Below, piece by piece: positions 15,163 through 32,291 of a DNA stretch of 64,000 nucleotides. Location: positions 62,001-126,000 of the forward strand of contig CACBBX010000001.1 of the NCBI GenBank assembly GCA_902537575.1, read 5' to 3'. This DNA is from an uncultured Pelagibacteraceae bacterium (GTDB lineage: Bacteria; Pseudomonadota; Alphaproteobacteria; Pelagibacterales; Pelagibacteraceae). Position 1 is the first letter of the stretch. The number at the start of each line of letters is the position of its first letter. The notes under the pieces were generated by a model. It was not told where the DNA came from, made no database searches, and saw nothing but the letters and a program-made list of their open reading frames with translations. The translations under genes were made by a program, and so were the position numbers.

Positions 15163-16017
15163 ATGGCATTACCTACTTATACAGAGACAAGATATAGAAT
15201 TTGGCATTATTTTTATATTGGTTTTTGTACTTTTGTATTTATTTTTTTGATTGCTCCTTTATTTGTAATCTTCCCTTTATCATTTAATGCAGAAGAATTT
15301 TTAGTTTTTTCTGAAGGTATGAAAAATCTTGATCCTGATGCTTTTTCGTTAAGATGGTATCATGAAATGGTGTATGGAACCAAAAATCCATGGGGATTAG
15401 CAGCAAAAAATAGTTTTATAATTGCAATATTTGCAACTATAGGATCAATTATTTTAGGAACCTTGGCAGCTTTAGGACTTAGTAGCAGACATATGCCATA
15501 CAAAGGTTTAATTATGGCAGTTTTAATTTCACCTATGATAGTTCCATTGATTATATCAGGTGTTGCAATTTTCTTTTTTATGGCAAAAGTTGGTTTAGCA
15601 GCGACACATACAGGAATAATTTTAGCTCACATTATACTAGGGACTCCATTTGTTGTTATCACAGTAACAGCTACACTTTCAGGCTTCGATCACAGTGTAA
15701 CCAGGGCTGCCTCAAGCTTAGGAAGTAATCCTGTAAATACATTTATGAAAATCACGTTACCTTTAATATTGCCAGGAGTGATTTCAGGTGGTTTATTTGC
15801 TTTTGTAACTTCGTTCGACGAGGTGGTAGTAGTATTATTCTTGGCAGGATTAGATAATACAACAATCCCAGTTCAAATGTGGACTGGATTAAGAGAACAA
15901 CTAAGCCCAACAATACTAGCAGTAGCTACCTGTCTTATTATTTTATCTACTCTAATTTTAGTAACTGCTGAATTGCTTAGAAGAAGATCAGAAAGATTGA
16001 GGGGAATTAGTAGATAA
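15163..16017 (+). CDS. potC: PotC-like ABC transporter permease
   Basis: A 284-residue permease with six predicted helices and the cytoplasmic coupling loop TRAASSLGSNPVNTFMKITLP, the normal length for PotC. It is the last gene of the transporter set, 2 bp after potB, and ends 14 bp before the convergent ilvE-like gene. Together with PotB it forms the heterodimeric channel. The C-terminus RRRSERLRGISR is basic, as is usual for the cytoplasmic tail. Confidence 0.88.
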   Translation: MALPTYTETRYRIWHYFYIGFCTFVFIFLIAPLFVIFPLSFNAEEFLVFSEGMKNLDPDAFSLRWYHEMVYGTKNPWGLAAKNSFIIAIFATIGSIILGTLAALGLSSRHMPYKGLIMAVLISPMIVPLIISGVAIFFFMAKVGLAATHTGIILAHIILGTPFVVITVTATLSGFDHSVTRAASSLGSNPVNTFMKITLPLILPGVISGGLFAFVTSFDEVVVVLFLAGLDNTTIPVQMWTGLREQLSPTILAVATCLIILSTLILVTAELLRRRSERLRGISR

Positions 16018-16031
16018 TTAAAATTTATATA

Positions 16032-16910
16032 TTAATTTTTTCCAACTAATTTATCGTACGTTGAAGCTAAATCTAAAATTAAATCACATACTGTAAATTT
16101 ATTTTCTAATATATTTGCAACAGGTGTAATTTCTGCAGCTGTACCTGTTATAAAACATCCAGAAAAATTTGGTAACTCTTTAGGAGATATTTTTCTCTCA
16201 TTTACTTTTATATTTTTTGATTTTGCTAAATCTATTACTGTTTTTCTTGTTATACCATCCAAGAAAGAATCTGGGATAGGAGTATTTAATTCATTATTCT
16301 TATCTTTAAAAAAAATGTTAGCACTAGTTGCTTCAGCAATATTACCTTCATGATCAAGCATGAGGGAGTCGGTAAAACCGTTCTTCTCTGCCTCGTGTTT
16401 AGAAAGTGTACAAATCATATACAAACCTGCAGCTTTACTATTCCATGGAGATGAATTTTGAGGAGGTCTTTGCCATTTTGAAATATTAAGCTTGATTCCT
16501 TTTAATTTTAATTTTGGATCAAAATATGCAGGCCAATCCCATATAGCTATAGCAACATTAATTTTTGTTTTTTGGGCAGACACCCCCATCATTTCACTAC
16601 CTCTCCACACGAAGGGCCTGATGTATCCATTTTCTATACCTTGATCTTTAACAAGTTTTATTGTTGCTGTGTTTATTTCATTTTCAGAGTATGGAATCTT
16701 CATATCCATAATTTTTGCAGAATGAAATAATCTTTTTGTATGTTCCTCTAGCTTGAATATTTTTTTATTATAAACCCTCAAACCCTCAAAGACTAAGCTT
16801 GCATAGTGCATTCCATGACTAATGACATGAACTTTTGTATCTTGCCATTCGACCAATTCATTATTAAACCAAATTTTTCCAGATCTTTTATCAAAAGGTA
16901 TTTGTTCCAT
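16032..16910 (-). CDS. ilvE: Branched-chain-amino-acid aminotransferase-like (class IV PLP transaminase)
   Basis: A 292-residue fold type IV PLP enzyme. The catalytic lysine is K159 in PWNSKAAGLY; HYASLVFEGLRVY and SFLDGITRKTVIDLA are family hallmarks. IlvE moves the amino group between glutamate and branched-chain 2-oxoacids; D-amino-acid aminotransferases and related enzymes share the fold. It is the last gene of an eight-gene minus-strand run, 9 bp after the thiolase, so it may feed a 2-oxoacid into that pathway rather than serve only biosynthesis. Confidence 0.82.
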   Translation of the reverse strand: MEQIPFDKRSGKIWFNNELVEWQDTKVHVISHGMHYASLVFEGLRVYNKKIFKLEEHTKRLFHSAKIMDMKIPYSENEINTATIKLVKDQGIENGYIRPFVWRGSEMMGVSAQKTKINVAIAIWDWPAYFDPKLKLKGIKLNISKWQRPPQNSSPWNSKAAGLYMICTLSKHEAEKNGFTDSLMLDHEGNIAEATSANIFFKDKNNELNTPIPDSFLDGITRKTVIDLAKSKNIKVNERKISPKELPNFSGCFITGTAAEITPVANILENKFTVCDLILDLASTYDKLVGKN

Positions 16911-16919
16911 TTATAAATC

Positions 16920-18041
16920 TTAAATAGACTCTATTATAGTGGCAATACCCATTCCTAAACCTATACATTGAGTTGCCAAAGCATACTTTTTATTTTCTCT
17001 TTTTAAGAGTTGGGCTGCTTTACCCGTAATTCTTGCACCTGTAGCACCTAGGGGGTGACCTAAAGCTAATGCACCGCCATCTATGTTAACTTTATTTTGG
17101 TCAATCTTAAGATCTTTTATGCAAGCTAAAGACTGGGAAGCAAAAGCCTCATTTAACTCTATTATATCAATATCATTAATAGTTAGATTTGCTCTTTCTA
17201 AAGCTTTTTGAGAAGCTCCTATTGGACCCAACCCCATTGTTTCTGGCTTACATCCTTGAACTGATGTAGAAACAATTTTTGCTAAAATTTCTAAATTATT
17301 ATCTTTAGCATATTGCTCCTCACAAATTAAAGTTGCAGCAGCTCCATCCGTTAAAGGAGAAGATGTTGCAGCAGTAACAGTTCCATTCTGATCAAATGCT
17401 AATTTTAATCCATCTAACTTTTCTTGATTACTGTTAGGTCTTATGTTGCTATCTTTAGAACAATTTCCAATTGAAACAATTTCATTATTAAAATTTCCTT
17501 TAGCCTGTGCTTCGAAAGCTTTTTTGTGACTAGAAATTGCAAATTCTTGTTGTTCATTTCTTGATATAGAATATTGCTTTGCAACATTTTCTGCAGTTGT
17601 TCCCATCGTAAAATATACATTTGGATTTTCTTTTTTAGAATAAGGATATGGCATTGATTCAAAACCAGTATTTACTCTTGTCATACTTTCGACACCACCA
17701 CACACAAAAACTTTCCCAGATCCCATTGCAATTTTTCCTGCAGCAACGTGTATTCCTTCCATAGATGATCCACACCATCTATCCACAGTCATGCCAGATG
17801 TTTTTATGTCCATATTAGTTAAAAATGTTACTAATTTTCCAATATTAAAAGATTGTTCACCCGTTTGAAAAGCACAACCTACGACTATGTCCTCAATATC
17901 TTCACGTTTAATTCTAGATTTTGTAACGAGATTATTAATCACTTCAGCCAGTAAATTAACTGGCTTAACATCTATTAATTCACCTTTTCTTGCCATTGTA
18001 AAAGGAGATCTAGAATAACCTGCTATGACTGCTTTAAACAT
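16920..18041 (-). CDS. Acetyl-CoA C-acyltransferase (thiolase)
   Basis: A 373-residue thiolase with the acyl-accepting cysteine C90 (DRWCGSSMEGIH), the NEAFASQ loop, the GGALALGHPLGATGARI histidine motif and the second cysteine in QCIGLGMG. Family members cleave 3-oxoacyl-CoA with CoA or condense acetyl-CoA. At 373 residues it is a little shorter than FadA (about 390). A FadN-type hydroxyacyl-CoA dehydrogenase/hydratase lies on the other side of the same locus (30069), and the two could act in one beta-oxidation sequence. It is within the GcvT/ThDP/FMN operon, 27 bp after the DmdA-like gene. Confidence 0.88.
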   Translation of the reverse strand: MFKAVIAGYSRSPFTMARKGELIDVKPVNLLAEVINNLVTKSRIKREDIEDIVVGCAFQTGEQSFNIGKLVTFLTNMDIKTSGMTVDRWCGSSMEGIHVAAGKIAMGSGKVFVCGGVESMTRVNTGFESMPYPYSKKENPNVYFTMGTTAENVAKQYSISRNEQQEFAISSHKKAFEAQAKGNFNNEIVSIGNCSKDSNIRPNSNQEKLDGLKLAFDQNGTVTAATSSPLTDGAAATLICEEQYAKDNNLEILAKIVSTSVQGCKPETMGLGPIGASQKALERANLTINDIDIIELNEAFASQSLACIKDLKIDQNKVNIDGGALALGHPLGATGARITGKAAQLLKRENKKYALATQCIGLGMGIATIIESI

Positions 18042-18068
18042 TTTATAATAAAACTCTTGTATATATTT

Positions 18069-19214
18069 TTATTCAGGAAATGGCAAAGTGGTAATAATTC
18101 CTTTTCTTTTCTTTCCATCTAACATTTGAACAGTTACATTTTCTCCAACTTCCCAAAAGTCTCTCAAAATCATTGACAAACCAATATTATTTTTAATTCT
18201 TGGAGAATAAATACCTGATGTTATTTGACCAATTTTTTTGTTTTTATCTGATAAAACTGGCAGGGGTTGGCCAATTCCCGAACAAGCTTCTCCATCAAAA
18301 ATTATTCCTCTGATTTTTTGAATTATTCCATTTTTTTGAACTGATTTTAACGCCTCTTTTCCTATAAAATGGTGATCGACATCAGGGCTGCAATATTTTT
18401 CTAAATTACATTCGAAGGGATTATTTTCATTTGTGAAATCATTCCCATAAGACATAAGTCCACCTTCAATTCTATCAATTAAATTAGGGCAGCCAGGTGA
18501 AATATTAAACTCTTGTCCAGCATCCCAAATTATTTTCCACAGTTTTTCTCCCATCTCAATACTATCAAAATGACTATCATGAACTTTAAAATATATTTCA
18601 AATCCATCTTGCTTACTATAACCTGATCTAGCAACAACTTGTTTTGTACCCATAAAATCCATAATTCTAAAATTGAAAAATTTAATTTTTTTTACATCTT
18701 CTCCAAAAACTTTAGTCATAAGTTCTTCCGACTTTGGACCTTGTATTGCAAGTGGATATACATCAGGCTCTTCAATATTCACATTAAGATCTAAGCCTAA
18801 TGCAAATCCTTTGGCCCACAATAGAATATCTGAATCCGCAATCGATATCCAAAACATATCGTCATCTAATTTCAGTAATACAGGATCATTTATCATACCA
18901 GCTTTTTCATTAAGTATCGGAATATAAAAACACTTTCCTGTTTCCATTTTTTTAATTGATCGAGGTGTTAATTTTTGAACAAGTTTAGAGGCGTCAGGTC
19001 CACTAATTTGGACTTGCCTTTGACAAGAAACATCCCAAATCTGTACATCTTTACTTAAATGCCAATAATCAGTTTCAACAGAATTTTTGAAACCTTTTGG
19101 AAGAAGCATGTGGTTTACAACTGTAAAATCAGAAACACCATGCTTTTCAACCATACTGGTATAAGGTGTTCTTCTAATTCTTCGAGACATATTCAATTTA
19201 ATATTTTTTGTCAT
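18069..19214 (-). CDS. dmdA: DmdA-like tetrahydrofolate-dependent demethylase (GcvT family)
   Basis: A 381-residue aminomethyltransferase-fold protein. Its N-terminus (SRRIRRTPYTSMVEKHGV), NHMLLP and KDVQIWDVSCQRQVQI segments resemble the DMSP demethylase DmdA more than glycine-cleavage GcvT. DmdA moves a methyl group from dimethylsulfoniopropionate to tetrahydrofolate, giving methylmercaptopropionate. The assignment rests on remembered family motifs and not on an alignment, and GcvT-fold enzymes with other methyl donors cannot be excluded. Downstream DMSP genes (dmdB, dmdC, dmdD) are not adjacent; instead it sits with a TTR-like protein, ThDP enzyme and thiolase. Confidence 0.65.
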   Translation of the reverse strand: MTKNIKLNMSRRIRRTPYTSMVEKHGVSDFTVVNHMLLPKGFKNSVETDYWHLSKDVQIWDVSCQRQVQISGPDASKLVQKLTPRSIKKMETGKCFYIPILNEKAGMINDPVLLKLDDDMFWISIADSDILLWAKGFALGLDLNVNIEEPDVYPLAIQGPKSEELMTKVFGEDVKKIKFFNFRIMDFMGTKQVVARSGYSKQDGFEIYFKVHDSHFDSIEMGEKLWKIIWDAGQEFNISPGCPNLIDRIEGGLMSYGNDFTNENNPFECNLEKYCSPDVDHHFIGKEALKSVQKNGIIQKIRGIIFDGEACSGIGQPLPVLSDKNKKIGQITSGIYSPRIKNNIGLSMILRDFWEVGENVTVQMLDGKKRKGIITTLPFPE

Positions 19215-19233
19215 AGAAATTTATTTATTATTA

Positions 19234-19569
19234 TTATTTAGACCACCAAATAGAATATCCATTTGGCGAAATGATAATTGGTAAATGATACTTTTTTTTA
19301 GGATCTTCCATTTTGAATTTAATAGTTATTTCTGAAACAATCTTTTTTTCCGAAAAATATTCAGCAGTTTTGCAAATCATTTCATATTCGCAAGCACAAT
19401 CATTTTCAGATAGTTCAAAATTTTTTATAATTCTTCCCTCTTCATCTGTTTCTGTTTCATAAAATGTTTTTTTTAATCCAGATCGATTAATTTGATTAAT
19501 TATTACCTTTACTCCACTTGCATGGCTCCCATTGCTAGAATTTAGAAGATGAGATGATAAAGTTGCCAT
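19234..19569 (-). CDS. Transthyretin/5-hydroxyisourate-hydrolase-like protein with an altered C-terminal signature
   Basis: A 111-residue protein matching the HIUase/transthyretin-like fold over its full length: LSSHLLNSSNGSHASGV at the N-terminus, an arginine in DEEGRI, and YHLPIIISPNGYS at the C-terminus. In true HIU hydrolases the protein ends in YRGS, part of the active site; here it ends WWSK, and this is not a frameshift (no YRGS in other frames). The histidines (H7 and the YH near residue 94) and the arginine remain. The function may therefore differ from uric-acid catabolism; no uricase or OHCU decarboxylase is nearby. It sits 3 bp after the ThDP enzyme gene. Confidence 0.75.
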   Translation of the reverse strand: MATLSSHLLNSSNGSHASGVKVIINQINRSGLKKTFYETETDEEGRIIKNFELSENDCACEYEMICKTAEYFSEKKIVSEITIKFKMEDPKKKYHLPIIISPNGYSIWWSK

Positions 19570-19572
19570 ATT

Positions 19573-21315
19573 TTATTCTATTGAAGCCTTATCTCTTTTA
19601 TCACTAACCGCAGCAACTATTGGACTAATAACGCCTTTAGCTTTCACGTTGATACACGCAGTTTTACCACTCTCTATTGCTCTTTTTAAAGCTGGAGCAA
19701 GTTGTTCTCTTTTTGTCACAAGTTCACCATGACCTCCAAAGCCTTCAAAAATTTTGTGAAATGGTATATCTCTAAAATCTGTTGCAAAGTGTTTTCCATT
19801 ATCAAATAACCTTTCTTGTTGCTGAGATATGCAATCTAATCCACCGTTATTATCAATTACTACTACTATAGGTTTATTTTCTTGGAAAGCAGCTTCAATT
19901 GACAATCCTCCTGAAAGAAAAGCGCCATCACCACTAATTAGAACTACATTTGAATTAGGATTTAAGTTTTTCGCAGAAAGAGCAAAAGGTACACCAACTC
20001 CCAACATACTAAAAGTACCTGGATGGAGAATTCCTCCAATTTTTTTTCCTTTAGATCCTGCAATATTTATTGCAATTTCAGACCAAAAATGTGTGTTACC
20101 CCCATCAATTACTAACCAATCTTTTTCTCCAATGGCATCTTGAACATCTAAGGCTAATTGAAGAGGATGCATTTTTCCTCCATTCATTTCAGCTTCTTTT
20201 GTTTCTTTGCTTAAATTGTTTAAAGTTTTATCAACCCACTCCATTTTTTTTGATTTGTTAAGATCAAACCACTTTTTATCTAAATTCCATTTATTACTAA
20301 TTTTAAGTTTGTTTAAAGTATCAAAAAATACACCTGGATCACATAGGAGGTTAATATCTGCAGCCCTATTAAGCTCTATTTCTTCATGAGATCCATTGAT
20401 ACAAATAAGCCTAGTTGTTTTTGGAAAAAGTGGAGGGTTTCCAAAATTCATCTGATTATCTAATCTTGCCCCAACCATTAAAACTAAGTCAGATTCGTTT
20501 AATGCAAACTTAGATGGAGGATATTGATGTATATCAGCTAAACCCATATAAGCATTAGCTTCTTCGCCCAGTAACTTTTGGTGATAAGGAATATTAAATA
20601 TGGGAATATTTAAAGTATTTCCTACTTCCTCTAATTTTTTTTCAGACTCAGACCACCAAACTCCGTGACCACCAATTAAAACTGGTTTTTTTGAATTACA
20701 AGCAAGTTCTAATATTTCAGACATTTGTAATGGGTCAGGCCATGCTTTAACTATAGGTTTTTTTTGATGTGAAAATGGTCTCTCTTCAAGACCAACATCT
20801 TCAGAAAATGATGAAAACATAATATCAACAGGCAAACTTAAATGAACAGCTCCTGGATATCCATTGGTTGCTATTCTGTATGCTTTGTCTACAAATTCCC
20901 TTATTCTAGTGCCATCTGTTATACTCGCGCTATACTTAGTTAGCGGTGCAGCAATAGCGACATCATCAATTTCCTTAAACCCACCTGAACCCTGTCTTTT
21001 CAAACTACTGGAACCAGTTATAAATATTACAGGTGATCTTTCACCCCAAGCTTCCATCATTGAAGGTACTGCATTTGCAAATCCTTCTGGACCTACAAGA
21101 CAAACTGTAGGTTTTCTGGTAATTCTAGTATGTCCGTCGGCAATATGTCCTGCTATTTGTTCATGGGGACAGTTTATTACTTCCATCTGACACTCCATAA
21201 ATCCTTCAAGTGCTGGATTACAAAAACCTCCGGACAAAGTAAACACATGTTTTATACCCTTGTCTTTTAAGGCTCTAGCAATTAATGACCCACCTCTGAT
21301 TTTTTTTTCTGACAT
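19573..21315 (-). CDS. ThDP-dependent enzyme (2-hydroxyacyl-CoA lyase / oxalyl-CoA decarboxylase / acetolactate-synthase family)
   Basis: A 580-residue ThDP enzyme with three domains: an N-terminal domain with the catalytic glutamate in NCPHEQIAGHIADG (about residue 53), a central Rossmann-like domain (KKPVLIGGHGVWW), and the C-terminal ThDP/Mg motif ISGDGAFLSGGLSIEAAF...DNNGG. The family splits or joins carbon-carbon bonds next to a carbonyl. Its gene ends 3 bp before the TTR-like gene and directly abuts the FMN 2-hydroxyacid dehydrogenase gene, so oxidation of a 2-hydroxyacid and cleavage of the 2-oxo product could be sequential. Substrate unknown; a second, different ThDP enzyme starts this window. 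Confidence 0.85.
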   Translation of the reverse strand: MSEKKIRGGSLIARALKDKGIKHVFTLSGGFCNPALEGFMECQMEVINCPHEQIAGHIADGHTRITRKPTVCLVGPEGFANAVPSMMEAWGERSPVIFITGSSSLKRQGSGGFKEIDDVAIAAPLTKYSASITDGTRIREFVDKAYRIATNGYPGAVHLSLPVDIMFSSFSEDVGLEERPFSHQKKPIVKAWPDPLQMSEILELACNSKKPVLIGGHGVWWSESEKKLEEVGNTLNIPIFNIPYHQKLLGEEANAYMGLADIHQYPPSKFALNESDLVLMVGARLDNQMNFGNPPLFPKTTRLICINGSHEEIELNRAADINLLCDPGVFFDTLNKLKISNKWNLDKKWFDLNKSKKMEWVDKTLNNLSKETKEAEMNGGKMHPLQLALDVQDAIGEKDWLVIDGGNTHFWSEIAINIAGSKGKKIGGILHPGTFSMLGVGVPFALSAKNLNPNSNVVLISGDGAFLSGGLSIEAAFQENKPIVVVIDNNGGLDCISQQQERLFDNGKHFATDFRDIPFHKIFEGFGGHGELVTKREQLAPALKRAIESGKTACINVKAKGVISPIVAAVSDKRDKASIE

Positions 21316-22473
21316 CTAATATTTAAAGTCTCTTATAAACCTTTCTGAAATTATATCTGAAGAAATATCTTTTATATCAGTTAAACCAACTAATCCCAAT
21401 GCAGTACTTATTTCATCTTTTATTATATCTACAACACGTTTTAGTCCGTTGGCACCATCTGCGCCAATTCCATACATTAAAGGTCTACCAATCATTGTAA
21501 AATCAGCACCCATTGCTAAAGCTCTAACCACATCACTTCCACCTCTAATTCCACTATCGAAAATAATTGGAAAATCATTTCCTAATGCATTTCTTATTAA
21601 AGGTAATGCCTCAATTGATGTTAAAGCACTATCCAATTGTCTTCCACCATGATTTGATACTTGTATTGCATCAGCACCTTCAGATTTGATTTTGATTGCA
21701 TCTTTAGATGACATCACTCCTTTAATTATTAACTTACCTTTCCATTTTTCTCTAATCCTTTTTAGTGTATCCCAATCTGTAGCACCTCTACTCTCACTTC
21801 TTACAAATTTGTTACCCTTCTTGGATGTTTCGTAATTCATTGGTTTTGGTATACCATTAAGCAAAGTACTAATTGACCAATTTGGATGAGTTGCAAAGTC
21901 AACAAATTGTTTTAATCCAAGGTTAAAAGGTACATTAAAACCGTTTCGATTATCTTTAGCTCTACGAAATTGTATTGGCACATCTACAGTTAAAATTGCA
22001 ACCTTATAACCAGTTCTCTCGGCTCTATCTAATAACTCCATAACAAATTCTTCATCTTGAAAATTATAAAGTTGTAGCCAAACATTTCCATTAGAAAATT
22101 CATACATATTTTCTAGAGAGGTTGAGGAAGCCATTGACACACACATAGGCACATTACTTGAAAGACTTTCTTCAGCTAACATTTTATCAGCACCTGGCCA
22201 AGTTAAATTACACATACCCATCGGCGCAAAACCAAATGGTTGGTTATATTCAAATCCAAGAATATCTTTTTTTATAATTCTTTTTTCTACATTTCGTAAA
22301 ACTTTTGGCTGTAATCTTATTTGGTCTAATGATTTACTATTGTTCTCACATAATCGTTCGTCACCTGAGGCACCATCAACAAAATCAAACATTAATTTTG
22401 GAACACGTTTTTTTGCAACAATTCTTGCTTCTTCAACGCTATGAATTTTTTCACTTGCTACTACGTTATTCAT
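21316..22473 (-). CDS. FMN-dependent alpha-hydroxyacid dehydrogenase/oxidase (LldD/glycolate-oxidase family)
   Basis: A 385-residue TIM barrel with the family signature SNHGGRQLD (about 272-280, containing the catalytic histidine), the FDFVDGASGDE N-terminal flavin segment, and the FDSGIRGGSDVVRALAMGAD phosphate-binding region. Members oxidise L-lactate, glycolate, mandelate or long-chain 2-hydroxyacids to 2-oxoacids. The gene starts within the stop of the S51 peptidase (ATGA) and ends directly against the ThDP enzyme gene, which argues for a joint pathway. No membrane anchor is evident. Confidence 0.88.
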   Translation of the reverse strand: MNNVVASEKIHSVEEARIVAKKRVPKLMFDFVDGASGDERLCENNSKSLDQIRLQPKVLRNVEKRIIKKDILGFEYNQPFGFAPMGMCNLTWPGADKMLAEESLSSNVPMCVSMASSTSLENMYEFSNGNVWLQLYNFQDEEFVMELLDRAERTGYKVAILTVDVPIQFRRAKDNRNGFNVPFNLGLKQFVDFATHPNWSISTLLNGIPKPMNYETSKKGNKFVRSESRGATDWDTLKRIREKWKGKLIIKGVMSSKDAIKIKSEGADAIQVSNHGGRQLDSALTSIEALPLIRNALGNDFPIIFDSGIRGGSDVVRALAMGADFTMIGRPLMYGIGADGANGLKRVVDIIKDEISTALGLVGLTDIKDISSDIISERFIRDFKY

Positions 22474-23159
22474 AATTTATTTATATACTCTTTTAGACTA
22501 ATTTTATTATTTTTATCAACAAAATATGCATCACAATTTTCCCTAGCAGAATAAACTTCTTTAGCAACTCCATTAACAAAAAGTACAGCAACACCATCAT
22601 CTATAGCAACTCCTGGAGGCAACTTGTTTTTTTTAATTTCTGATTGATATTGAGACATTCTATTATTTTCTAATGAGTGTGGCGTACAACTCCCTGATAT
22701 CAAGTTGATACCTTTTAAAACCTTATATCCCGAACCTAAAGAGTATGACAAAATCCAATCAAACCAACACACACCACCAGCACTAACACCTGATAATATT
22801 ATTCCTTTTTCATAAGCATTTTTAAAAATATTAATTAAATTACAATTTTTCCAAAGTTCTAACATATAGGCAGTATTTCCTCCTCCTATATAAATTACAT
22901 GTTTATCAAAAATCCATTGAGAAAAACCAACGATATTAGATGTAAGGTTAAAATGAGATAATTCTGAAGTTTTATTTTCAAATCTTTTATAAAATAGATC
23001 AATTTTTGTATTATCATCCTTACTAGCTGTAGCTAAAAAACCAATTTTTTTATTTTTATTTGTAGATTGGTTAATAACAAAATCATCTAAGCCTTCATCA
23101 GATTGATGAGTAAATCCGCCTCCACCTATTGCAATTATTTTTTTTTCTAATTTAGACAT
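22470..23159 (-). CDS. Peptidase S51 family (dipeptidase E / cyanophycinase-like)
   Basis: A 229-residue serine peptidase of family S51; the nucleophile is S126 in GVSAGGVCWFDW, with YIGGGNTAYMLE upstream. Dipeptidase E hydrolyses Asp-X dipeptides and the cyanophycinase branch hydrolyses isoaspartyl bonds. No signal peptide is present, so it acts in the cytoplasm on imported material. It lies between the GcvT-type gene (26 bp upstream) and the FMN dehydrogenase (4-bp overlap), opposite a Dpp-type peptide transporter, which suits the import and opening of a small peptide-like substrate. Confidence 0.82.
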   Translation of the reverse strand: MSKLEKKIIAIGGGGFTHQSDEGLDDFVINQSTNKNKKIGFLATASKDDNTKIDLFYKRFENKTSELSHFNLTSNIVGFSQWIFDKHVIYIGGGNTAYMLELWKNCNLINIFKNAYEKGIILSGVSAGGVCWFDWILSYSLGSGYKVLKGINLISGSCTPHSLENNRMSQYQSEIKKNKLPPGVAIDDGVAVLFVNGVAKEVYSARENCDAYFVDKNNKISLKEYINKL

Positions 23160-23185
23160 TAAATTAATTAAAGTTATAAAATTAA

Positions 23186-24409
23186 TTAATTTCTAATACC
23201 TGCCCACGGTGCAGGTTTTTGAGGTATATCTTTTTTGATACCTCTCACTATTTCACCTTTGGCATCATACATTGGTAATTTACAAAGTTCTGCTTTATGA
23301 ATTTTATTATCTATACACTCTACATCTATCACTGTTCCAGGACCAATTTCTGAATTGTCCAGTAGTGCTATCCCAACACCACAAACTTGATAAGGAGACC
23401 ATGTACTTGATGTCACTTTACCAACAATTTTCCCATTTAATTTTAAAGACCTTCCTTTTTTTGCAATACCATCTACAACTCTAATACCCCAACTTCGGCA
23501 TTCTTTATTTGCATCAAGTAATGCTTTTTTTCCAATAAAATTATCTTTTTTGAAGTCAACAAAATGTCCTAAACCTACGGAAAAAGGAGTCGTTTCAATT
23601 GAAAAATCTTGACCGGCAGAAAGTAGTCCTGCCTCTATTCTCCTGCCTCTAAATGCAGGAGTCCCTGTAATAATCATTCCCATTTTTGAACCTTCGTTCA
23701 GAATTAAATCTCCTAATTTTTCTGAATTATTTTCGGGCCTAAAATATATTTCCCATCCAAGCTCATTTGTAAATCCAGTACGACTTACTATAACTTTCTC
23801 TTTAGCCATAGTCACTTCAACCCAATCAAAATAATTCCAAGATTTTGCTATTGGTTCATCAATCAAGTTATCAAGAAGATCCATAGACTTTGGACCTTGT
23901 ACTTGACTAACAAAAACATTTGGCTCCAGAATTTCTACATCTAACCCCTCAGAATGGGCATTATACCACGAAAACATTTCTCCATCTGCTTGAGCAAACC
24001 AATATCTTTCATCATCAATTCTTAAAAGTAATCCATCGGTAATTATTCCACCATTGTGATAGCAAGCAAACTGATAAGAACATCTTCCTTTTTTAACTTT
24101 TGAAATATCTCGAGGAAAAATTTTTTGTAGTAACTTAAGTGCATCTGGGCCTTTAATTTCATAAGGATGTTCTCCAGTATGCCTAAAAATAACTTCCTGT
24201 TTCGTTTTCCAATATTGTTCATCTGCAGTAGCATTTGATAATTTTTCGGTTGTCAGTCTTCCAGCATATTGAGAATATTCAGGATCATATGGAAGCTCTT
24301 GATATGTTAATGGATGAACACTTAATGTTCGAGCCATCTCTAACGGTCTTTCAGTTTCCTGTAATTGAGGTTTGATAGAAAACCTCAGATTTTGTAAAGA
24401 CTTATGCAT
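23186..24409 (-). CDS. GcvT-family tetrahydrofolate-dependent aminomethyltransferase/demethylase
   Basis: A 407-residue protein of the GcvT fold: IKGPDALKLLQKIFPRDIS near residue 83, the folate/substrate region SRTGFTNELGWEIYF near residue 210, GRRIEAGLLSAGQD near 255, and a C-terminal barrel (KVTSSTWSPYQVCGVGIA). It is a full-length single-domain enzyme unlike the fused DMGDH type. It differs strongly from the DmdA-like gene in the same operon, so it probably handles another methyl or aminomethyl donor. It is the promoter-proximal gene of the eight-gene minus-strand operon. Confidence 0.82.
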   Translation of the reverse strand: MHKSLQNLRFSIKPQLQETERPLEMARTLSVHPLTYQELPYDPEYSQYAGRLTTEKLSNATADEQYWKTKQEVIFRHTGEHPYEIKGPDALKLLQKIFPRDISKVKKGRCSYQFACYHNGGIITDGLLLRIDDERYWFAQADGEMFSWYNAHSEGLDVEILEPNVFVSQVQGPKSMDLLDNLIDEPIAKSWNYFDWVEVTMAKEKVIVSRTGFTNELGWEIYFRPENNSEKLGDLILNEGSKMGMIITGTPAFRGRRIEAGLLSAGQDFSIETTPFSVGLGHFVDFKKDNFIGKKALLDANKECRSWGIRVVDGIAKKGRSLKLNGKIVGKVTSSTWSPYQVCGVGIALLDNSEIGPGTVIDVECIDNKIHKAELCKLPMYDAKGEIVRGIKKDIPQKPAPWAGIRN

Positions 24410-24566: not shown

Positions 24567-26054
24567 ATGAAAAACATTTTTAAACTGATATCAGTTGTAT
24601 TGATATCATCTTTATTTTCTTTTTCAGCTGCAAATGCCTCAAGTGGAGTATTTAAAATTTCACATGACCTTGGATTTGGAAAAGATACAAATCTAGATGC
24701 AATTACTAAAGGAAGATTATTTCAAGTAGTAATTATGACTCAAAACCGTCTAGTAAGAAAAGATCTTAAAGGAGTTACATCAGCCGAACTAGCTACTGAT
24801 TGGTCAGCTAATGCCGATGCTACAGAATGGACATTTAAACTTAGAAAAGGTGTAAAATTTCACGATGGATCTGACTTTGATGCAGAGGATGTAAAATATT
24901 CTTTGATGCGTGTTCAAGATCCAGAAATAGGTTCCCCTGCAAAAAAAAGTATGAGTACAGTAACAGCTATTGAAGTTGTGGACTCCCATACTATTAAAAT
25001 GAAATTAAATACATCTTTTGCAGATTTTCCATTATTACTTACTGATTACAGATTAAGAATGATTCCATCAGGCTCAGGAGATACTATTGGGCAAACTGGA
25101 ATTGGTACTGGTCCTTTTATAGTGGATAAATTTGATCCAGAAGGAACAACAGTTCTTAAAGCAAATGCAGATTATTGGGAGGGTGCACCTGGTTTAGCAG
25201 AAGTACATGTTATTGCTATTCCTGATGGTGAAGCTAGAGTTCAAGCACTTTTAACTGGTCAGATACATATGAACAGATATGTTCCGTTCAGTCAAAAAAA
25301 AATCTTTGATGGAAACTCTAAGTTTAATGTTTCGGTTGTGCCCACAGGAAACTGGAGAGGAATGGTTATGAGAACAGATACAGCACCATTTGACAATGCA
25401 AAGGTTAGAAAAGCTGTAAGATTAGCTGTAGACAGACAAGAACTTGTAGATTTGGTTATGGGAGGAGCTGCAACCGTATCTTGTGATACACCTGTTGCAC
25501 CATCAGACCAATATCGTCTTAAAATGAAGTGTCCACAGGATATCAAAAAAGCTAAAAAGCTTTTAGCTGAAGCAGGTTATCCAAATGGGATTGATATGGT
25601 AATTCATGTTTCTACTAAAGAACCTACATGGCCAACAATAGGAGAAGTTTTGCAGCAGCAATTTGCTGAAGCTGGTATTAAGGCTGAGGTTAAAATGACT
25701 CCTTCAAAAAGTTATTGGAATGAAACTTGGATGAAAAAACCAGTCGCAATGACCCGTTGGAATGAAAGACCCGCTGATAGTGCATTGCATGAAATTTATC
25801 ATAGTGGAGCAAAATGGAATGAGTCTTATTTCAAAAATCCAGATTTTGATAAAAACTTAGCTGATGCAAGAGGTGAGCTTAAATTTGGCAAAAGAAAAAA
25901 AGCTTATCAGAATGCCCAAAAAACATTATGGGAAGAATCTGGAACTTTGATTCCTTACCATGTATCTAAATTAATTGTAACTTCTTCTGCAGTCAAAAAT
26001 TTAGATGAAGTAGAGGTATTTTCTGTTCGTTGGCACAAAATCAAAATAAAGTAA
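24567..26054 (+). CDS. dppA: DppA-like peptide/opine/nickel-type ABC transporter substrate-binding protein
   Basis: A 495-residue class C (cluster C, SBP_bac_5) periplasmic binding protein with a signal peptide ending at about residue 25 (SFSAANASS). The WTFKLRKGVKFHDGSDFDAEDVKYSL segment is the classic family motif. Typical ligands are di- and oligopeptides but also opines and other small molecules. A near-perfect terminator follows, before the permease genes, so the protein is likely overproduced relative to them. It is divergent from the GcvT/S51/FMN/ThDP operon and probably brings in that operon's substrate (inference). Confidence 0.88.
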   Translation: MKNIFKLISVVLISSLFSFSAANASSGVFKISHDLGFGKDTNLDAITKGRLFQVVIMTQNRLVRKDLKGVTSAELATDWSANADATEWTFKLRKGVKFHDGSDFDAEDVKYSLMRVQDPEIGSPAKKSMSTVTAIEVVDSHTIKMKLNTSFADFPLLLTDYRLRMIPSGSGDTIGQTGIGTGPFIVDKFDPEGTTVLKANADYWEGAPGLAEVHVIAIPDGEARVQALLTGQIHMNRYVPFSQKKIFDGNSKFNVSVVPTGNWRGMVMRTDTAPFDNAKVRKAVRLAVDRQELVDLVMGGAATVSCDTPVAPSDQYRLKMKCPQDIKKAKKLLAEAGYPNGIDMVIHVSTKEPTWPTIGEVLQQQFAEAGIKAEVKMTPSKSYWNETWMKKPVAMTRWNERPADSALHEIYHSGAKWNESYFKNPDFDKNLADARGELKFGKRKKAYQNAQKTLWEESGTLIPYHVSKLIVTSSAVKNLDEVEVFSVRWHKIKIK

Positions 26055-26066
26055 ATTAATCTTGTA

Positions 26067-26100
26067 TTTACAGGCCTTATTTTAAGGCCTGTAAATTTTT
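26067..26100 (+). terminator. Intrinsic terminator between dppA-like and dppB-like genes
   Basis: A perfect 13-bp stem (TTTACAGGCCTTA / TAAGGCCTGTAAA) with a 3-nt TTT loop followed by five T residues. It separates the binding-protein gene from the permease/ATPase genes. Confidence 0.92.
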
Positions 26101-26140
26101 CACCTTTAAAATTATTTTTAAATTTTATAAATATTTAAAT

Positions 26141-27097
26141 ATGTTTTTTTTAGTAATAAAAAGAATTCTATTAGGTTTAATCACTTTATTTATAGTATCA
26201 CTAATCACATTTGCCGGAGTTGAGGTGTTACCTGGTGATGCCTGTACAACTTATCTTGAAAGACAGGCTTTTGGGGAAGCTTTAGAAGCTTGTTATCAGA
26301 GGCTCGGGCTTAATGTTCCCGCATATGAAAGATATATATCTTGGGCATGGGGAGTTCTTCAATGGGATTTTGGATATTCTCTAAGTGGAGAAATGAAAAT
26401 AAATGAGGTTTTAGGACCCAAAGTTAAAAATTCTTTAGTTCTTGCCTCGGCATCCATATTGATTGGGATACCCATTGCTTTATTATTAGGAATTGTAACT
26501 GCTTTATGGAGAGATAGACTTCCTGATATTATTATTTCCACTGTAACAATATTTTCTATGACAATTCCAGAATTTATAAGTGCAACATTATTAATTCTCA
26601 TTGTTGCTATTTGGCTTGAGTGGTTACCTGGTATTGTAATTGTTCCTACTGACGCAACTGTATCGGAATTACTGCCAAATATAATTTTACCAGTCATTGC
26701 AATCTCCATGATCATGACAGCTCATATGGCTAGGATGGTTAGATCTAGTGTAATTCAAGTAATGGCAAGTGATTACGTCCAAATGGCAATCTTAAAGGGA
26801 GTTCCTTATTGGAAAATGGTATTTAGACACGTTTTACCAAATGCTTTACTGCCAGCAATAAACGTTGTTGCTCTTACAATCGCATGGTTATTAGGTGGTG
26901 TTGTGGTAACTGAGGTTGTTTTTAATTACCCTGGCTTAGGGAGATTAGTAATTGAGTCTATCTCAAATAGAGATTTGCCCGTAGTTCAAGCTTTAGCAAT
27001 TATTCTTGCATCAATATATGTGGGTATCAATTTGATTGCTGATCTAACAACTTTAATGTTGAACCCTAGGTTAAAATCTCTTCAAATAAAAAAGTAA
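26141..27097 (+). CDS. dppB: DppB-like ABC transporter permease
   Basis: A 318-residue permease with six predicted helices; N-terminal KRILLGLITLFIVSLITFAG and the coupling segment ASDYVQMAILKGVPYWKMVFRHVLPNALLPA are hallmarks of the oligopeptide DppB/OppB class. It is normal length. It lies 86 bp after dppA beyond the terminator, and 1 bp before dppC. It forms the channel with the next gene product. Confidence 0.9.
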   Translation: MFFLVIKRILLGLITLFIVSLITFAGVEVLPGDACTTYLERQAFGEALEACYQRLGLNVPAYERYISWAWGVLQWDFGYSLSGEMKINEVLGPKVKNSLVLASASILIGIPIALLLGIVTALWRDRLPDIIISTVTIFSMTIPEFISATLLILIVAIWLEWLPGIVIVPTDATVSELLPNIILPVIAISMIMTAHMARMVRSSVIQVMASDYVQMAILKGVPYWKMVFRHVLPNALLPAINVVALTIAWLLGGVVVTEVVFNYPGLGRLVIESISNRDLPVVQALAIILASIYVGINLIADLTTLMLNPRLKSLQIKK

Positions 27098-27098
27098 A

Positions 27099-27983
27099 AT
27101 GACCAAAAAAAAAGAAAAACAAAAAAATACTTTCGAAAAAATATGTGAAGTAATTAAAACTATGGCTTCTAAGCCATCGGGTTTAATAGGTTTAACAATA
27201 CTTATTTTCCATGTCATCTTAGCGATTACAAGTCCATTGTATGTACCATATGATTACAAAGCTATTGATCCAACATTAATGTTGACCCCACCATCGTCTG
27301 AATTTTGGTTTGGTACTGACAGTTTAGGAAGAGATGTTTTTACTAGAACAATCTTAGGAGGCAGAACAGCTTTAACAGTTACATTTTTTGGTTCTTTAAT
27401 TGCATTACTTTGGGGTGGTGCATTGGGAATATTTTGTGGACTTGTTGGTGGAAAAATAGATGACGTTGTTATGAGAATTATAGATGCGTTTTTATCTATT
27501 CCATGGATCTTAGCAATGCTTTTAATTGTTTCTTTATTAGGAACTACAACACTTGTTTTAATTCCAGCGCTCGGTTTCTTTTATGGTAAAGGTATTGTTA
27601 GAGTAGCAAGGGCAGCAACACATGATGTGATTGCTAAGGATTTTATAGTTTCAGCAAGAGCAAGAGGTCATAGCAACTTATCAATAATCTGGAATGAAAT
27701 TTTACCAAATGTAAGAGATGCAATTATGGTCGAAGGAGCTATGAGATGGTCATGGATGTTACTTGGATTTAGTTCATTATCTTTTTTAGGATTTGGAGTA
27801 AGTCCTCCAACACCAGATTGGGGTTTAATGATTTCAAATGCGAGAGGATTAATGTCTTTTGCGTACTGGGCAGTGTTAGCTCCAATATTTGGATTAAGTT
27901 CATTAATCATTGGAATTAATTTGACAGCCGATGCATTTGCAAAAGCACTTGGAATAGACAGATCAACAAAGGCACCTGTTTAA
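27099..27983 (+). CDS. dppC: DppC-like ABC transporter permease
   Basis: A 294-residue permease of the DppC/OppC type: an N-terminal cytoplasmic lysine-rich tail (TKKKEKQKN), first helix from about residue 28, the FGTDSLGRDVFTRTILGGRTAL periplasmic-membrane motif, and the coupling loop DFIVSARARGHSNLSIIWNEILP. Length and motifs are standard. One bp separates it from the fused ATPase gene. Confidence 0.9.
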   Translation: MTKKKEKQKNTFEKICEVIKTMASKPSGLIGLTILIFHVILAITSPLYVPYDYKAIDPTLMLTPPSSEFWFGTDSLGRDVFTRTILGGRTALTVTFFGSLIALLWGGALGIFCGLVGGKIDDVVMRIIDAFLSIPWILAMLLIVSLLGTTTLVLIPALGFFYGKGIVRVARAATHDVIAKDFIVSARARGHSNLSIIWNEILPNVRDAIMVEGAMRWSWMLLGFSSLSFLGFGVSPPTPDWGLMISNARGLMSFAYWAVLAPIFGLSSLIIGINLTADAFAKALGIDRSTKAPV

Positions 27984-27984
27984 A

Positions 27985-30018
27985 ATGGATAGTGCGGTTC
28001 AAACAATAAATAATCTTACAATTGGATTTACAAGTCAAAAAGGGAAACAGATTTCCATTCTAAAAAATATTTCAACCACTATTAAAAAAGGTGAGACAGT
28101 TGGGATTGTTGGAGAGTCTGGCTCAGGAAAAAGTACTCTAGCTCTAGCTATGATGGGCTATGTAAAACACGGCCTTTATACCATTTCTGGAGAGTGCTTA
28201 TTTCATTCAAACAATCTTCTAAAAATGAAAAATAAAGATCTAGAAAATATAAGGGGCAGAAAAATAGCAATGATCCCACAAAATGCGGGTCAATCACTTA
28301 CTCCTAATCTTAAAATTGGATATCAAATTGATGAGGCTTTAAAATTACATACAGATTTAAAAAAAGAAGAAAGAGATAAAAAAATATCAGGATTACTGAA
28401 TAAAGTTAGATTGCCTTCGCCAGAGATAATGGCGCAAAGATATCCGCATGAATTATCAGGGGGACAGCAACAAAGGGTAGCTGTTGCAATGGCTTTAGCA
28501 GGTAATCCCGAACTTCTGTTATTAGATGAACCAACTACGGGATTAGATGTAACAACACAGGCACATGTGTTAGAATTATTAAATTTTATTGCAAAAGATA
28601 CAGGAACCTCAATGGTTTATGTAAGTCATGATCTTGGAGCAATAGCACAAGTTAGCGATAGAGTAATTGTTATGTATTCTGGTGAAATTGTTTTAGATGG
28701 TCCAGTAAGAAGTATATTAAAAAACCCAATTCATCCTTATACATTTGGATTATTAAAGTCTATTCCAAAACTAACCTCTCCAGGTTTACCAGACTCTATG
28801 TCAGGAAGCCAACCTCAGCCAGGAACAATTAAAACAGGGTGTAGTTTTTATGAGAGATGTAATCTTGCAGAAGATAACTGTAAAAATAATTCACCAACTT
28901 TAGAATACATTGATGGTTTAAATACCAGCGTTAGATGTTTTAAATATAAAGAATTAATCAACGTAAAAGAAACAAATCTAGACACTGTAAAATCAATAAA
29001 CAATCATGTTTTACAAAACGAAATTTTAGATATTTCAAAAGTTTCAATTAGCTATGCTAAACAAAAGTTTATCGATCAGTTGTTAAATAAAATTGATGAT
29101 AGCAATCCAACAGTCCAAGATATTAATATTAATATCAATAAAGGAGAAACTCTTGCGCTAGTAGGGGAGTCTGGCAGTGGGAAATCAACAATATTAAAAT
29201 CAATTGCAGGATTATTAAAAACAAAAGATGGCATGATAAAGTTTGATAAAGATAAAGTTTTATCAAATGATTTAAAAATGAGAGATCCAGGTTTTTTAAG
29301 AGCAATTCAATTGATATTTCAAAATCCAGATGAGTCTTTAAATCCAAATCATACTGTTGAAGAAATAGTATCACAGCCTTTAAGATTATATTTTGGATTA
29401 AAGGGAGACGAACTAAAACAAAAAATTATAGAAGTGCTTGAAAAAGTTAGACTTGGGGAATTTTACTTAACAAGATATCCAAGACAATTATCAGGAGGTG
29501 AAAAACAAAGAGTTGCTGTTGCAAGAGCATTTGCTGCGAAACCAGATATTATTCTTTGTGATGAAGTAACCTCTGCACTTGATGTTTCAGTTCAAGCAGC
29601 TGTGTTAAACTTACTTCAAGAATTAAAAGAGGATTTTGGTACAACTTATATATTTGTATCTCACGATCTAGCAGTTGTAAGAGCTATTAGTGACAGAGTT
29701 GCAGTTCTATATCAAGGAAGATTATGTGAAATTGGTCCTTCAAAAAATGTTTATCAACTACCATCACATCCGTATACAGAAGTTTTATTGGGTGCAGTTT
29801 TAGAGCCTGACCCGGATTTAAAACCCAAATTAGTTGCCGAAGATATAGTTGAAGAAAAGCCACCCGAAAAAGGCTGTTCTTTTCAAGGCAGATGTCCTAG
29901 AATTCTTGGTGATATTTGTAAAAACGAGGTTCCACCATGGCAAATTGGTGAAAATGGAAACTCAATACGTTGCCATATAAAAGTAGAGGATTTAAAAAAA
30001 CAACAAAATATCAATTAG
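27985..30018 (+). CDS. Fused DppD-DppF-type double ABC ATPase
   Basis: A 677-residue protein holding two complete ABC ATPases in tandem. The first (about 1-310) has Walker A GESGSGKST, LSGGQQQRVAVAMAL and LLLDEPTTGLD; the second (about 345-677) has GESGSGKST, LSGGEKQRVAVARAF and ILCDEVTSALD. Each half ends with the oligopeptide-type cysteine-rich C-terminal region (GCSFYERCNLAEDNC and GCSFQGRCPRILGDIC) that often holds an iron-sulfur site. Fusion of DppD and DppF is common in compact genomes. The gene ends 50 bp before the FadN-like gene. Confidence 0.92.
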   Translation: MDSAVQTINNLTIGFTSQKGKQISILKNISTTIKKGETVGIVGESGSGKSTLALAMMGYVKHGLYTISGECLFHSNNLLKMKNKDLENIRGRKIAMIPQNAGQSLTPNLKIGYQIDEALKLHTDLKKEERDKKISGLLNKVRLPSPEIMAQRYPHELSGGQQQRVAVAMALAGNPELLLLDEPTTGLDVTTQAHVLELLNFIAKDTGTSMVYVSHDLGAIAQVSDRVIVMYSGEIVLDGPVRSILKNPIHPYTFGLLKSIPKLTSPGLPDSMSGSQPQPGTIKTGCSFYERCNLAEDNCKNNSPTLEYIDGLNTSVRCFKYKELINVKETNLDTVKSINNHVLQNEILDISKVSISYAKQKFIDQLLNKIDDSNPTVQDINININKGETLALVGESGSGKSTILKSIAGLLKTKDGMIKFDKDKVLSNDLKMRDPGFLRAIQLIFQNPDESLNPNHTVEEIVSQPLRLYFGLKGDELKQKIIEVLEKVRLGEFYLTRYPRQLSGGEKQRVAVARAFAAKPDIILCDEVTSALDVSVQAAVLNLLQELKEDFGTTYIFVSHDLAVVRAISDRVAVLYQGRLCEIGPSKNVYQLPSHPYTEVLLGAVLEPDPDLKPKLVAEDIVEEKPPEKGCSFQGRCPRILGDICKNEVPPWQIGENGNSIRCHIKVEDLKKQQNIN

Positions 30019-30068: not shown

Positions 30069-32291
30069 ATGAAAATAAATAATGTAGTTGTCATTGGCTC
30101 AGGAACCATGGGCAGCGGAATAGCGGCGCAACTATGTAATGCAAATATTCCAGTAACTTTATTAGATTTAAAAACAGAGATCAGTCAAAAAGCCAAAGAG
30201 AGAATAGAAAAATCAAGACCCCCACTATTAATTGATAAATCAAAAATAGATGGGATTAAAGTTGGAAATATTAATGATGATTTTAATATTGTATCAGAGG
30301 CTGATTGGATTGTTGAGGCAGTTGTAGAACGTATTGATATTAAACATGATATCTATGACAAAATTTTTAAGCAAAGAAAGAAAGGCTCTATAGTTTCATC
30401 AAATACTTCTTCAATTCCAATAAGCGTTTTATCTGAAAAATTGACAGAGGATGATAAAAAAGATTTTTGTATCACTCACTTCTTCAATCCTGTTCGATAT
30501 ATGGATTTACTCGAAATTGTAAAAAACGAGAATACTGATTTAGATAAAATTCAAAAACTCAAACTATTTTGCGAAGAAGATTTAGGAAAAGGAGCCATTG
30601 TTTGTAATGATACTCCAGGTTTTTTAGGGAATAGAATTGGCGTTTATGCAATGCAAATTGCAATGACAGAAGCATTTAAAATGAAGCTTACTATAGAAGA
30701 AGCAGATGCAGTTTTTGGTAGACCTATGGGAATACCAAAGACAGGAGTTTTTGGTCTTTATGATTTAATTGGTATTGATCTAATGGCAGACGTATTAAAA
30801 AGTTTCATCAAAGAGCTTCCAGAAAATGATAACTTTCAAGATGTAGCTAAAGAAATTCCTTTAATAAGAAAACTAATTGATACTGGATATACAGGTCGAA
30901 AAGGCAAAGGTGGTTTCTATAGAATGAACAAAGTTGATAATACAAAAATTCTAGAGGCTATAAATTTAGAAACAGGAGAATATTCACCATCACAAAAAAT
31001 AGATATTAAATCAGAAAAAGTTGATTTATTAAAATTGATTAATAGAGGTGATAAATACGGAGATTATGCATGGTCGGTTATTTCAAAGATTATTAAATAT
31101 GCATCTTCTTTAGTTCCAGGAATTACAGATAAGTTTAACGATATAGATGAAGCTATGCGTTTAGGATTCAATTGGTCAAGAGGACCTTTTGAAATGTTAA
31201 AAGAAATTGGTGTCAGTAACTTTTTTGAAAAACTAGATGGTTTTAAAAACAACAAATTTTTAGAGGAACTTTCAAAATCTAAAGATGAAAATTTTTATGG
31301 AGAAAGACAAAAATATACTGAAATAGAAACTTTAGGAAAAATAAAACCCAAAGCAATAAAGTTAGATAGAAACAATTCTGCAGAGATTTATAGATTTAAT
31401 GATTTTAATATAGTTGAGTTCACAACCAAAGCTAACGCATTAGATTATGACTCGATGGATGCATTAAAGAAAGCAACTGATAAACCTTTAATTATTATTA
31501 ATGAAAGTATGCAATTTTCTGCAGGTGTAAATTTAACTTACACAATGAATTTTGCAGAAAAGGGTGATTACAGTTCGATTGAAAAGTTTGTTAAATACTT
31601 CCAAGATACCTGCAAAGAACTTAAATATTCAAAATATCCAGTTGTTTCAGCTCCTTCAGGACTAACATTAGGAGGTGGATTTGAAGTTCTGGTGCAAAGT
31701 AATTTTGTGGCTTCCCATACTAATATTGTTGTTGGACTTGTTGAAACTATGGTTGGTTTAGTTCCAGCAGGGGGAGGATGTAAAGAAATGTTATGGAGAT
31801 GGTCGCAAACTGAAGAAGCAAAAAATGATCCAGATTATGCACCGTTAAAAGTTTTTGATATTATAGGTTATGGTAAAACAGCAACATCACCAGTTGAGGC
31901 AGAACCTCTTAAATACTTGCTTCCTGAAAATAAAAAAATCATGAGTAGAAATAGTTTATTGAATGTTTCAAGATCTATCTTGGAGGAGAATAAAGATTTT
32001 ACCCCGCCAGCTGAAGCAACTTTTAAATTAACAGGGAGACCATTAAAGGAAAAAATGGTTAAATTGTTAGAAAAATTATACAACGACAAAGTAATTTTAG
32101 ATCATGGAATGGTTGTTGGTAGTGAGCTTGCAAACGTATTAAGTGGAGGGGACACTACAATTGATAAAACTTTGTCAGAGGATGATTTATATAAGCTAGA
32201 ATTAAATTCTTTTATGAATTTAATTGAAACTCAAAAAACTAAAGACAGAATTAAGCACACACTTTCTAAAGGTAAACCTTTAGTTAATTAG
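30069..32291 (+). CDS. FadN-type 3-hydroxyacyl-CoA dehydrogenase / enoyl-CoA hydratase
   Basis: A 740-residue bifunctional beta-oxidation enzyme. The dehydrogenase part is N-terminal (NAD-binding VIGSGTMGSGIAAQLC at residues 8-23, then a second helical domain with GLYDLIGIDLMADV), and the crotonase part is C-terminal (about 430-640, GLTLGGGFEVLVQSNFV and GLVETMVGLVPAGGG). This order is reversed from FadB/FadJ and matches Bacillus FadN. It oxidises 3-hydroxyacyl-CoA to 3-oxoacyl-CoA for a thiolase; a thiolase gene lies 12 kb away in the divergent operon. It overlaps the convergent cyclophilin gene by 8 bp. Confidence 0.85.
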   Translation: MKINNVVVIGSGTMGSGIAAQLCNANIPVTLLDLKTEISQKAKERIEKSRPPLLIDKSKIDGIKVGNINDDFNIVSEADWIVEAVVERIDIKHDIYDKIFKQRKKGSIVSSNTSSIPISVLSEKLTEDDKKDFCITHFFNPVRYMDLLEIVKNENTDLDKIQKLKLFCEEDLGKGAIVCNDTPGFLGNRIGVYAMQIAMTEAFKMKLTIEEADAVFGRPMGIPKTGVFGLYDLIGIDLMADVLKSFIKELPENDNFQDVAKEIPLIRKLIDTGYTGRKGKGGFYRMNKVDNTKILEAINLETGEYSPSQKIDIKSEKVDLLKLINRGDKYGDYAWSVISKIIKYASSLVPGITDKFNDIDEAMRLGFNWSRGPFEMLKEIGVSNFFEKLDGFKNNKFLEELSKSKDENFYGERQKYTEIETLGKIKPKAIKLDRNNSAEIYRFNDFNIVEFTTKANALDYDSMDALKKATDKPLIIINESMQFSAGVNLTYTMNFAEKGDYSSIEKFVKYFQDTCKELKYSKYPVVSAPSGLTLGGGFEVLVQSNFVASHTNIVVGLVETMVGLVPAGGGCKEMLWRWSQTEEAKNDPDYAPLKVFDIIGYGKTATSPVEAEPLKYLLPENKKIMSRNSLLNVSRSILEENKDFTPPAEATFKLTGRPLKEKMVKLLEKLYNDKVILDHGMVVGSELANVLSGGDTTIDKTLSEDDLYKLELNSFMNLIETQKTKDRIKHTLSKGKPLVN

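Follow-up and report, generated by a model that had tools for sequence, protein, structure and literature searches.

An insertable SAR11 gene cassette with a DmdA paralogue that looks like an uncharacterised import and demethylation route

We analysed a 64,000-nucleotide window of an uncultured Pelagibacteraceae (SAR11) genome (positions 62,001 to 126,000 of contig CACBBX010000001.1, assembly GCA_902537575.1), whose minus strand carries, from 16032 to 24409, eight open reading frames (ORFs) that each match their named family. Divergent from this operon lies a DppABCDF importer (24567-30018, plus strand), with FadB next to it. Operon and importer, about 14 kb together, look like an uncharacterised import and demethylation route carried by some SAR11 genomes and by certain other marine bacteria. 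The operon in transcription order, followed by the importer and the flanking genes, reads as follows.

23186..24409, minus strand: GcvT1, a GcvT-fold demethylase below all curated cut-offs
22470..23159, minus strand: S51-family serine hydrolase with a GVSAG motif and no signal peptide evident by eye
21316..22473, minus strand: flavin mononucleotide (FMN)-dependent enzyme of the 2-hydroxyacid oxidase/dehydrogenase family
19573..21315, minus strand: thiamine diphosphate (ThDP)-dependent enzyme, its nearest solved relatives being 2-hydroxyacyl-CoA lyase, oxalyl-CoA decarboxylase and benzaldehyde lyase
19234..19569, minus strand: protein of the TTR/HIUase (5-hydroxyisourate hydrolase) fold, retaining His7, Arg46 and His93 and ending in W-[W/L/Y]-S
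18069..19214, minus strand: DmdA', a DmdA-family demethylase and paralogue of a canonical copy elsewhere in the genome
16920..18041, minus strand: thiolase (acetyl-CoA acyltransferase family), a SAR11-specific neighbour of the core
16032..16910, minus strand: IlvE-type branched-chain aminotransferase, an extra paralogue in a subset of SAR11
24567..26054, plus strand: DppA-like solute-binding protein, divergent from the operon and, with it, between PotC and FadB
26141..30018, plus strand: DppB, DppC and fused DppDF of a peptide-type ATP-binding cassette importer
15163..16017, plus strand: PotC, left flank of the insertion, outside the cassette
30069..32291, plus strand: FadB-like 3-hydroxyacyl-CoA dehydrogenase/hydratase, right flank of the insertion and a general gene of the genus

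The operon is tightly packed: by ORF coordinates its successive junctions measure 26 bp (GcvT1-S51), a 4-bp overlap (S51-FMN), 0 bp (FMN-ThDP), 3 bp (ThDP-TTR), 19 bp (TTR-DmdA), 27 bp (DmdA-thiolase) and 9 bp (thiolase-IlvE). Terminator-like sites are not in excess (4 vs. 3.1 ± 1.7 in shuffles) and none falls at an operon junction, the sole minus-strand site lying inside the ThDP gene; Rfam and tRNA scans of the window gave no matches. A preliminary description of this DNA had proposed eight same-strand genes separated by a 4-bp overlap to 27-bp gaps with no terminator at a junction and with a divergent Dpp-type transporter, all of which the ORF coordinates and the terminator scan bear out. 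Its two GcvT-type demethylases are likewise present, except that the one at 18069-19214 has to be corrected to a DmdA-family member, while GcvT1 stays under every curated cut-off. The window can be assigned to SAR11 because named Pelagibacteraceae records share its gene order and match its ThDP enzyme at 92-97% identity.

Comparison with relatives indicates that operon and importer form a single 14-kb insertion at a conserved site, between 16017 and 30069, because in nine SAR11 relatives FadB directly follows PotC (3-33 bp by ORF calls); two further relatives have PotC, then the thiolase, then FadB. The bounds first given for the unit, 16032-24409, thus hold for its genes and not for its end, as the unit extends further to include the importer. 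Elsewhere in SAR11 (L066, L071 and L072) the operon is located at other sites, and in one incomplete genome (G010) Dpp adjoins FadB at a contig start with no ThDP gene detected, so that the importer may also occur without the operon. FadB itself was considered as a pathway member and rejected: it is present in 18 of the 23 genus members searched, many of them without the cassette.

To place the cassette in a wider context, about 110 distinct neighbourhoods, gathered by searching whole genomes and by scanning named ones, were compared and tallied after the removal of three duplicates; all counts are minimum values, since many contigs break off within the cassette. Across 41 SAR11 loci DmdA occurs in 41, the thiolase and TTR in 40 each, FMN in 39, GcvT1 and S51 in 35 each, Dpp in 32 and IlvE in 19. 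A second uncultured alphaproteobacterial lineage contributes 46 loci, with TTR in 46, FMN and DmdA in 45 each, OsmC in 42, GcvT1 in 41, an enoyl-CoA hydratase in 40, a BHMT-like gene in 37 and Dpp in 34. Sixteen loci come from the order of genome G441, which we take, as a guess, to be SAR116-like: FMN, TTR and DmdA are found in all 16, Dpp in 14, S51 in 13 and an MttB-like gene in six. Carriers of the ThDP gene make up 29 of 101 genomes in that order and four of 246, one a distant match, in the order of G732. FMN, ThDP, TTR and DmdA stand together in SAR11, in the second lineage, in the order of G441 and in a few other alphaproteobacteria, and these four form the core, with GcvT1, S51 and the Dpp importer as usual partners. 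The recurrence of the gene order in SAR11 relatives, and of the core in other lineages, goes far beyond chance; the order that the preliminary description had proposed to seek in other SAR11 genomes is therefore there, and the core genes are not separated in most relatives.

What does not stand is the claim that all eight genes make one pathway. IlvE is found in fewer than half of the SAR11 loci, passes NCBIfam PRK07544 (462 bits, cut-off 396) and has a second copy in the genome at 71% identity. The thiolase passes its own curated cut-off, is found at 70% identity or more in SAR11 loci only, and occupies this site by itself in two SAR11 genomes that lack the rest of the cassette. Both genes are peripheral to the unit. 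Such variability, which extends to GcvT1, S51, MttB, OsmC and the enoyl-CoA hydratase, might also be read as a loose island, that is, unrelated catabolic genes gathered at a variable site rather than one pathway, and both the insertion at such a site and the oppositely oriented gene that comes between GcvT1 and the remaining operon genes in 11 SAR11 loci fit that picture. We nevertheless regard it as quite unlikely, given that FMN-ThDP-TTR-DmdA is contiguous and tightly spaced in several lineages and that ThDP and DmdA' have groupings in common. In both trees the lineages group alike, and f24, G1062 and G812, although from different families, fall together in each, which suggests transfer as a unit. 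The ThDP tree places the second lineage inside SAR11 and so hints at transfer between the two, but a single SAR11 clade is not rejected (approximately unbiased test, p 0.206). Plasmid records held no close relative of the ThDP enzyme (best 27%).

The identity of the demethylase is central to what the cassette may do. DmdA' passes the NCBIfam equivalog for dimethylsulfoniopropionate (DMSP) demethylase (PRK12486, 524.3 bits, cut-off 410), shares about 48% identity with the canonical SAR11 copies and retains Asp108, Glu204 and Tyr206 (3TFH numbering), invariant in 26 cassette copies; these features would suit a second DMSP demethylase in an alternative DMSP route. That reading is unlikely, however, since a canonical DmdA is encoded elsewhere in this genome and in most relatives, and since cassette and canonical proteins differ at 15 positions (each conserved at 90% or more within its group), including 32 and 197, where all 26 cassette copies carry Y32V and W197Y relative to canonical SAR11 DmdA. 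We take both positions to lie at the DMSP pocket. Furthermore, we know of no place in the DMSP demethylation pathway for the FMN, ThDP, TTR and S51 enzymes. In the DmdA tree the solved enzyme and the SAR11 canonical copies form one clade (100/99) and a third DmdA-like group another (95/99); this third group, also from SAR11 (G012:C1:412134-413219 and similar), is about 42% identical to the cassette copy. Judged by sequence, DmdA' is not the cell's usual DMSP demethylase.

GcvT1 has as nearest solved relatives GcvT, trimethylamine N-oxide demethylase and DmdA, and its copies at 60% identity or more were confined to cassette genomes among the 37 searched. S51 matches Pfam PF03575 with the GxSAG motif (G[VI]SAG in 15 of 15 aligned) and does not reach the PepE and cyanophycinase cut-offs. 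Between these two genes an oppositely oriented family-3 solute-binding-like gene is seen at L054:7370-8098 and in 10 further SAR11 loci. The weak similarity of GcvT1 to vanillate and syringate O-demethylases brings up a methoxylated, amide-like ring compound, for instance a mycosporine-like amino acid, from which GcvT-type enzymes would remove O-methyl groups while the ThDP enzyme opened a cyclic diketone and S51 and TTR cut amide-like bonds; amino-acid conjugates would indeed be a good match for an importer of the peptide type and for two families of hydrolases. Yet we hold this quite unlikely: in other lineages the core is partnered by MttB-like (quaternary-amine) and BHMT-like (homocysteine) methyltransferases, which favours onium over O-methyl groups, and the closest relatives of the ThDP enzyme are 2-hydroxyacyl-CoA lyase and benzaldehyde lyase, with no ring hydrolase among the matches listed.

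The FMN enzyme (Pfam PF01070, 394.5 bits) has the active-site His/Arg motif SNHGGRQ in 17 of 18 aligned copies. In the ThDP enzyme the catalytic Glu52 and the GDG...NN motif are kept, and no curated equivalog cut-off for 2-hydroxyacyl-CoA lyase or acetolactate synthase is reached, the best NCBIfam score among the matches listed being 259 against a cut-off of 587. The TTR protein conserves the catalytic His7, Arg46 and His93 in 13 of 13 aligned, and in the same 13 a W-[W/L/Y]-S end replaces YRGS. Its fold and its His/Arg/His set might suggest a hydroxyisourate-type hydrolase in a methylated ureide or purine route, which we think highly improbable: the YRGS end is lost, the HIUase cut-off is missed (TIGR02962, 73.5 bits vs. 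87.45), and the cassette has no gene for urate oxidase or OHCU decarboxylase.

On balance, we somewhat favour a cassette that takes up and degrades a methylated zwitterion distinct from DMSP, with a sulfonium or quaternary-ammonium compound the likeliest candidate. The gene families, their conserved order, the insertion site, the paralogy and altered residues of DmdA' and the retained catalytic motifs are seen in the sequences; the individual steps are predicted. Uptake would fall to the Dpp importer. An amide or related bond would be cleaved by S51 or, in another lineage, by an asparaginase-like enzyme. DmdA' would hand one methyl group over to tetrahydrofolate, and additional ones would be removed, or different acceptors used, by GcvT1 or, elsewhere, by MttB-like or BHMT-like enzymes. 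The FMN enzyme could then oxidise a 2-hydroxyacid, giving a 2-oxoacid; cleavage of the bond beside the carbonyl would be the task of the ThDP enzyme, and the TTR-like enzyme would hydrolyse a product. Products may reach acyl-CoA or amino-acid pools through the thiolase in SAR11 and also through IlvE in a subset of strains. Of the earlier scheme of uptake, demethylation, oxidation and cleavage there thus survives a co-inherited catabolic unit with importer, tetrahydrofolate-type demethylases, FMN oxidase and ThDP enzyme, though not the participation of all eight genes; its substrate labels 'peptide-like' and '2-hydroxyacid' derive from family membership and should be read as provisional. As a chemically fitting example rather than a claim, and an improbable one as the actual substrate, 4-dimethylsulfonio-2-hydroxybutyrate could be turned by DmdA' into methylthio-hydroxybutyrate and by the FMN enzyme into methylthio-oxobutyrate, which IlvE might convert to methionine or the ThDP enzyme decarboxylate, leaving S51, GcvT1 and TTR unexplained. 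A DmdD-like role for the second lineage's enoyl-CoA hydratase finds no support in its nearest solved relatives.

Several observations weigh against this proposal. In two small genome sets (f82 and f241) ThDP-TTR persists while DmdA' and FMN are mostly missing, and demethylation is therefore not tied to the innermost pair, whose other partners are an asparaginase-like gene in f82 and PhyH oxygenases in f241. Most copies of the FMN enzyme have Phe, and one Tyr, at an N-terminal-side site that is usually Tyr in the family and presumably binds substrate in 2-hydroxyacid oxidases; the enzyme may thus act on something other than a plain 2-hydroxyacid. The 26 cassette DmdA copies group together with modest support (85/42), and a part for positions 32 and 197 in DMSP binding is presumed.

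It is also worth recording what adjoins the cassette in other genomes and in the window. Two PhyH-family genes lie upstream of ThDP-TTR at L194:1646-3243 and L195:10730-13564, with a thiolase between them in L195, and occupy the place held in other lineages by the methyltransferases and the FMN enzyme. Proteins alike by eye adjoin the cassette in two lineages (L046:13521-14456 and L186:12751-13734), the former matching fatty acid hydroxylase. On the other flank of the operon in the window are a Pot-type importer and, next to it at 9543-11458, EutA-like and DoeA/EutD-like genes, the latter resembling the ectoine hydrolase DoeA; both are under the curated cut-offs, and an ectoine or related route is possible. 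A gamma-butyrobetaine dioxygenase-like gene (5893-7017), below its cut-off, lies in the same osmolyte-rich stretch.

A published account of SAR11 one-carbon metabolism lists four GcvT-like aminomethyltransferases in HTCC1062, two of them with unknown substrates; gonyol catabolism is stated to be unknown, and DmdA reportedly does not recognise dimethylsulfonioacetate (DMSA). Our literature search, whose reach left most subscription journals and all preprints outside it, returned no description of the cassette, no matching SAR11 operon, no homarine genes and no TTR/ThDP combination. The cassette, which is conserved, insertable and equipped with a DmdA paralogue, offers testable genes for a missing route such as gonyol or DMSA catabolism, and counts of 'dmdA' by the curated model would score the cassette clade as DMSP demethylase. 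That the whole amounts to an undescribed marine pathway for a non-DMSP methylated onium compound, in which a new TTR/HIUase subfamily and a novel DmdA clade do part of the work, and that horizontal transfer helped to spread it through SAR11 and further marine alphaproteobacteria, has in our estimate a little less than an even chance.

Four known systems come closest to the cassette or its parts. DmdA' shares with DmdA of Pelagibacter ubique (PDB 3TFH) the fold, the catalytic residues and a score above the curated family cut-off, but stands apart in the tree, carries the 15 fixed changes including Y32V/W197Y, sits in another gene context and coexists with a canonical copy elsewhere. The ThDP enzyme resembles 2-hydroxyacyl-CoA lyase, oxalyl-CoA decarboxylase and benzaldehyde lyase over its full length, including the catalytic Glu and GDG...NN, whereas it is distant from them, falls far from the curated cut-offs and belongs to a cassette without a CoA transferase. 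From HIUase, whose fold and His/Arg/His it retains, the TTR protein differs by the vanished YRGS end, by scoring below the curated cut-off and by adjoining a ThDP enzyme rather than purine genes. Finally, glycine betaine demethylation in SAR11 (BHMT, DMGDH, SARDH) passes onium methyl groups to homocysteine or tetrahydrofolate, as would the cassette, which however employs other enzyme families and has no FAD-dependent dimethylglycine or sarcosine oxidase.

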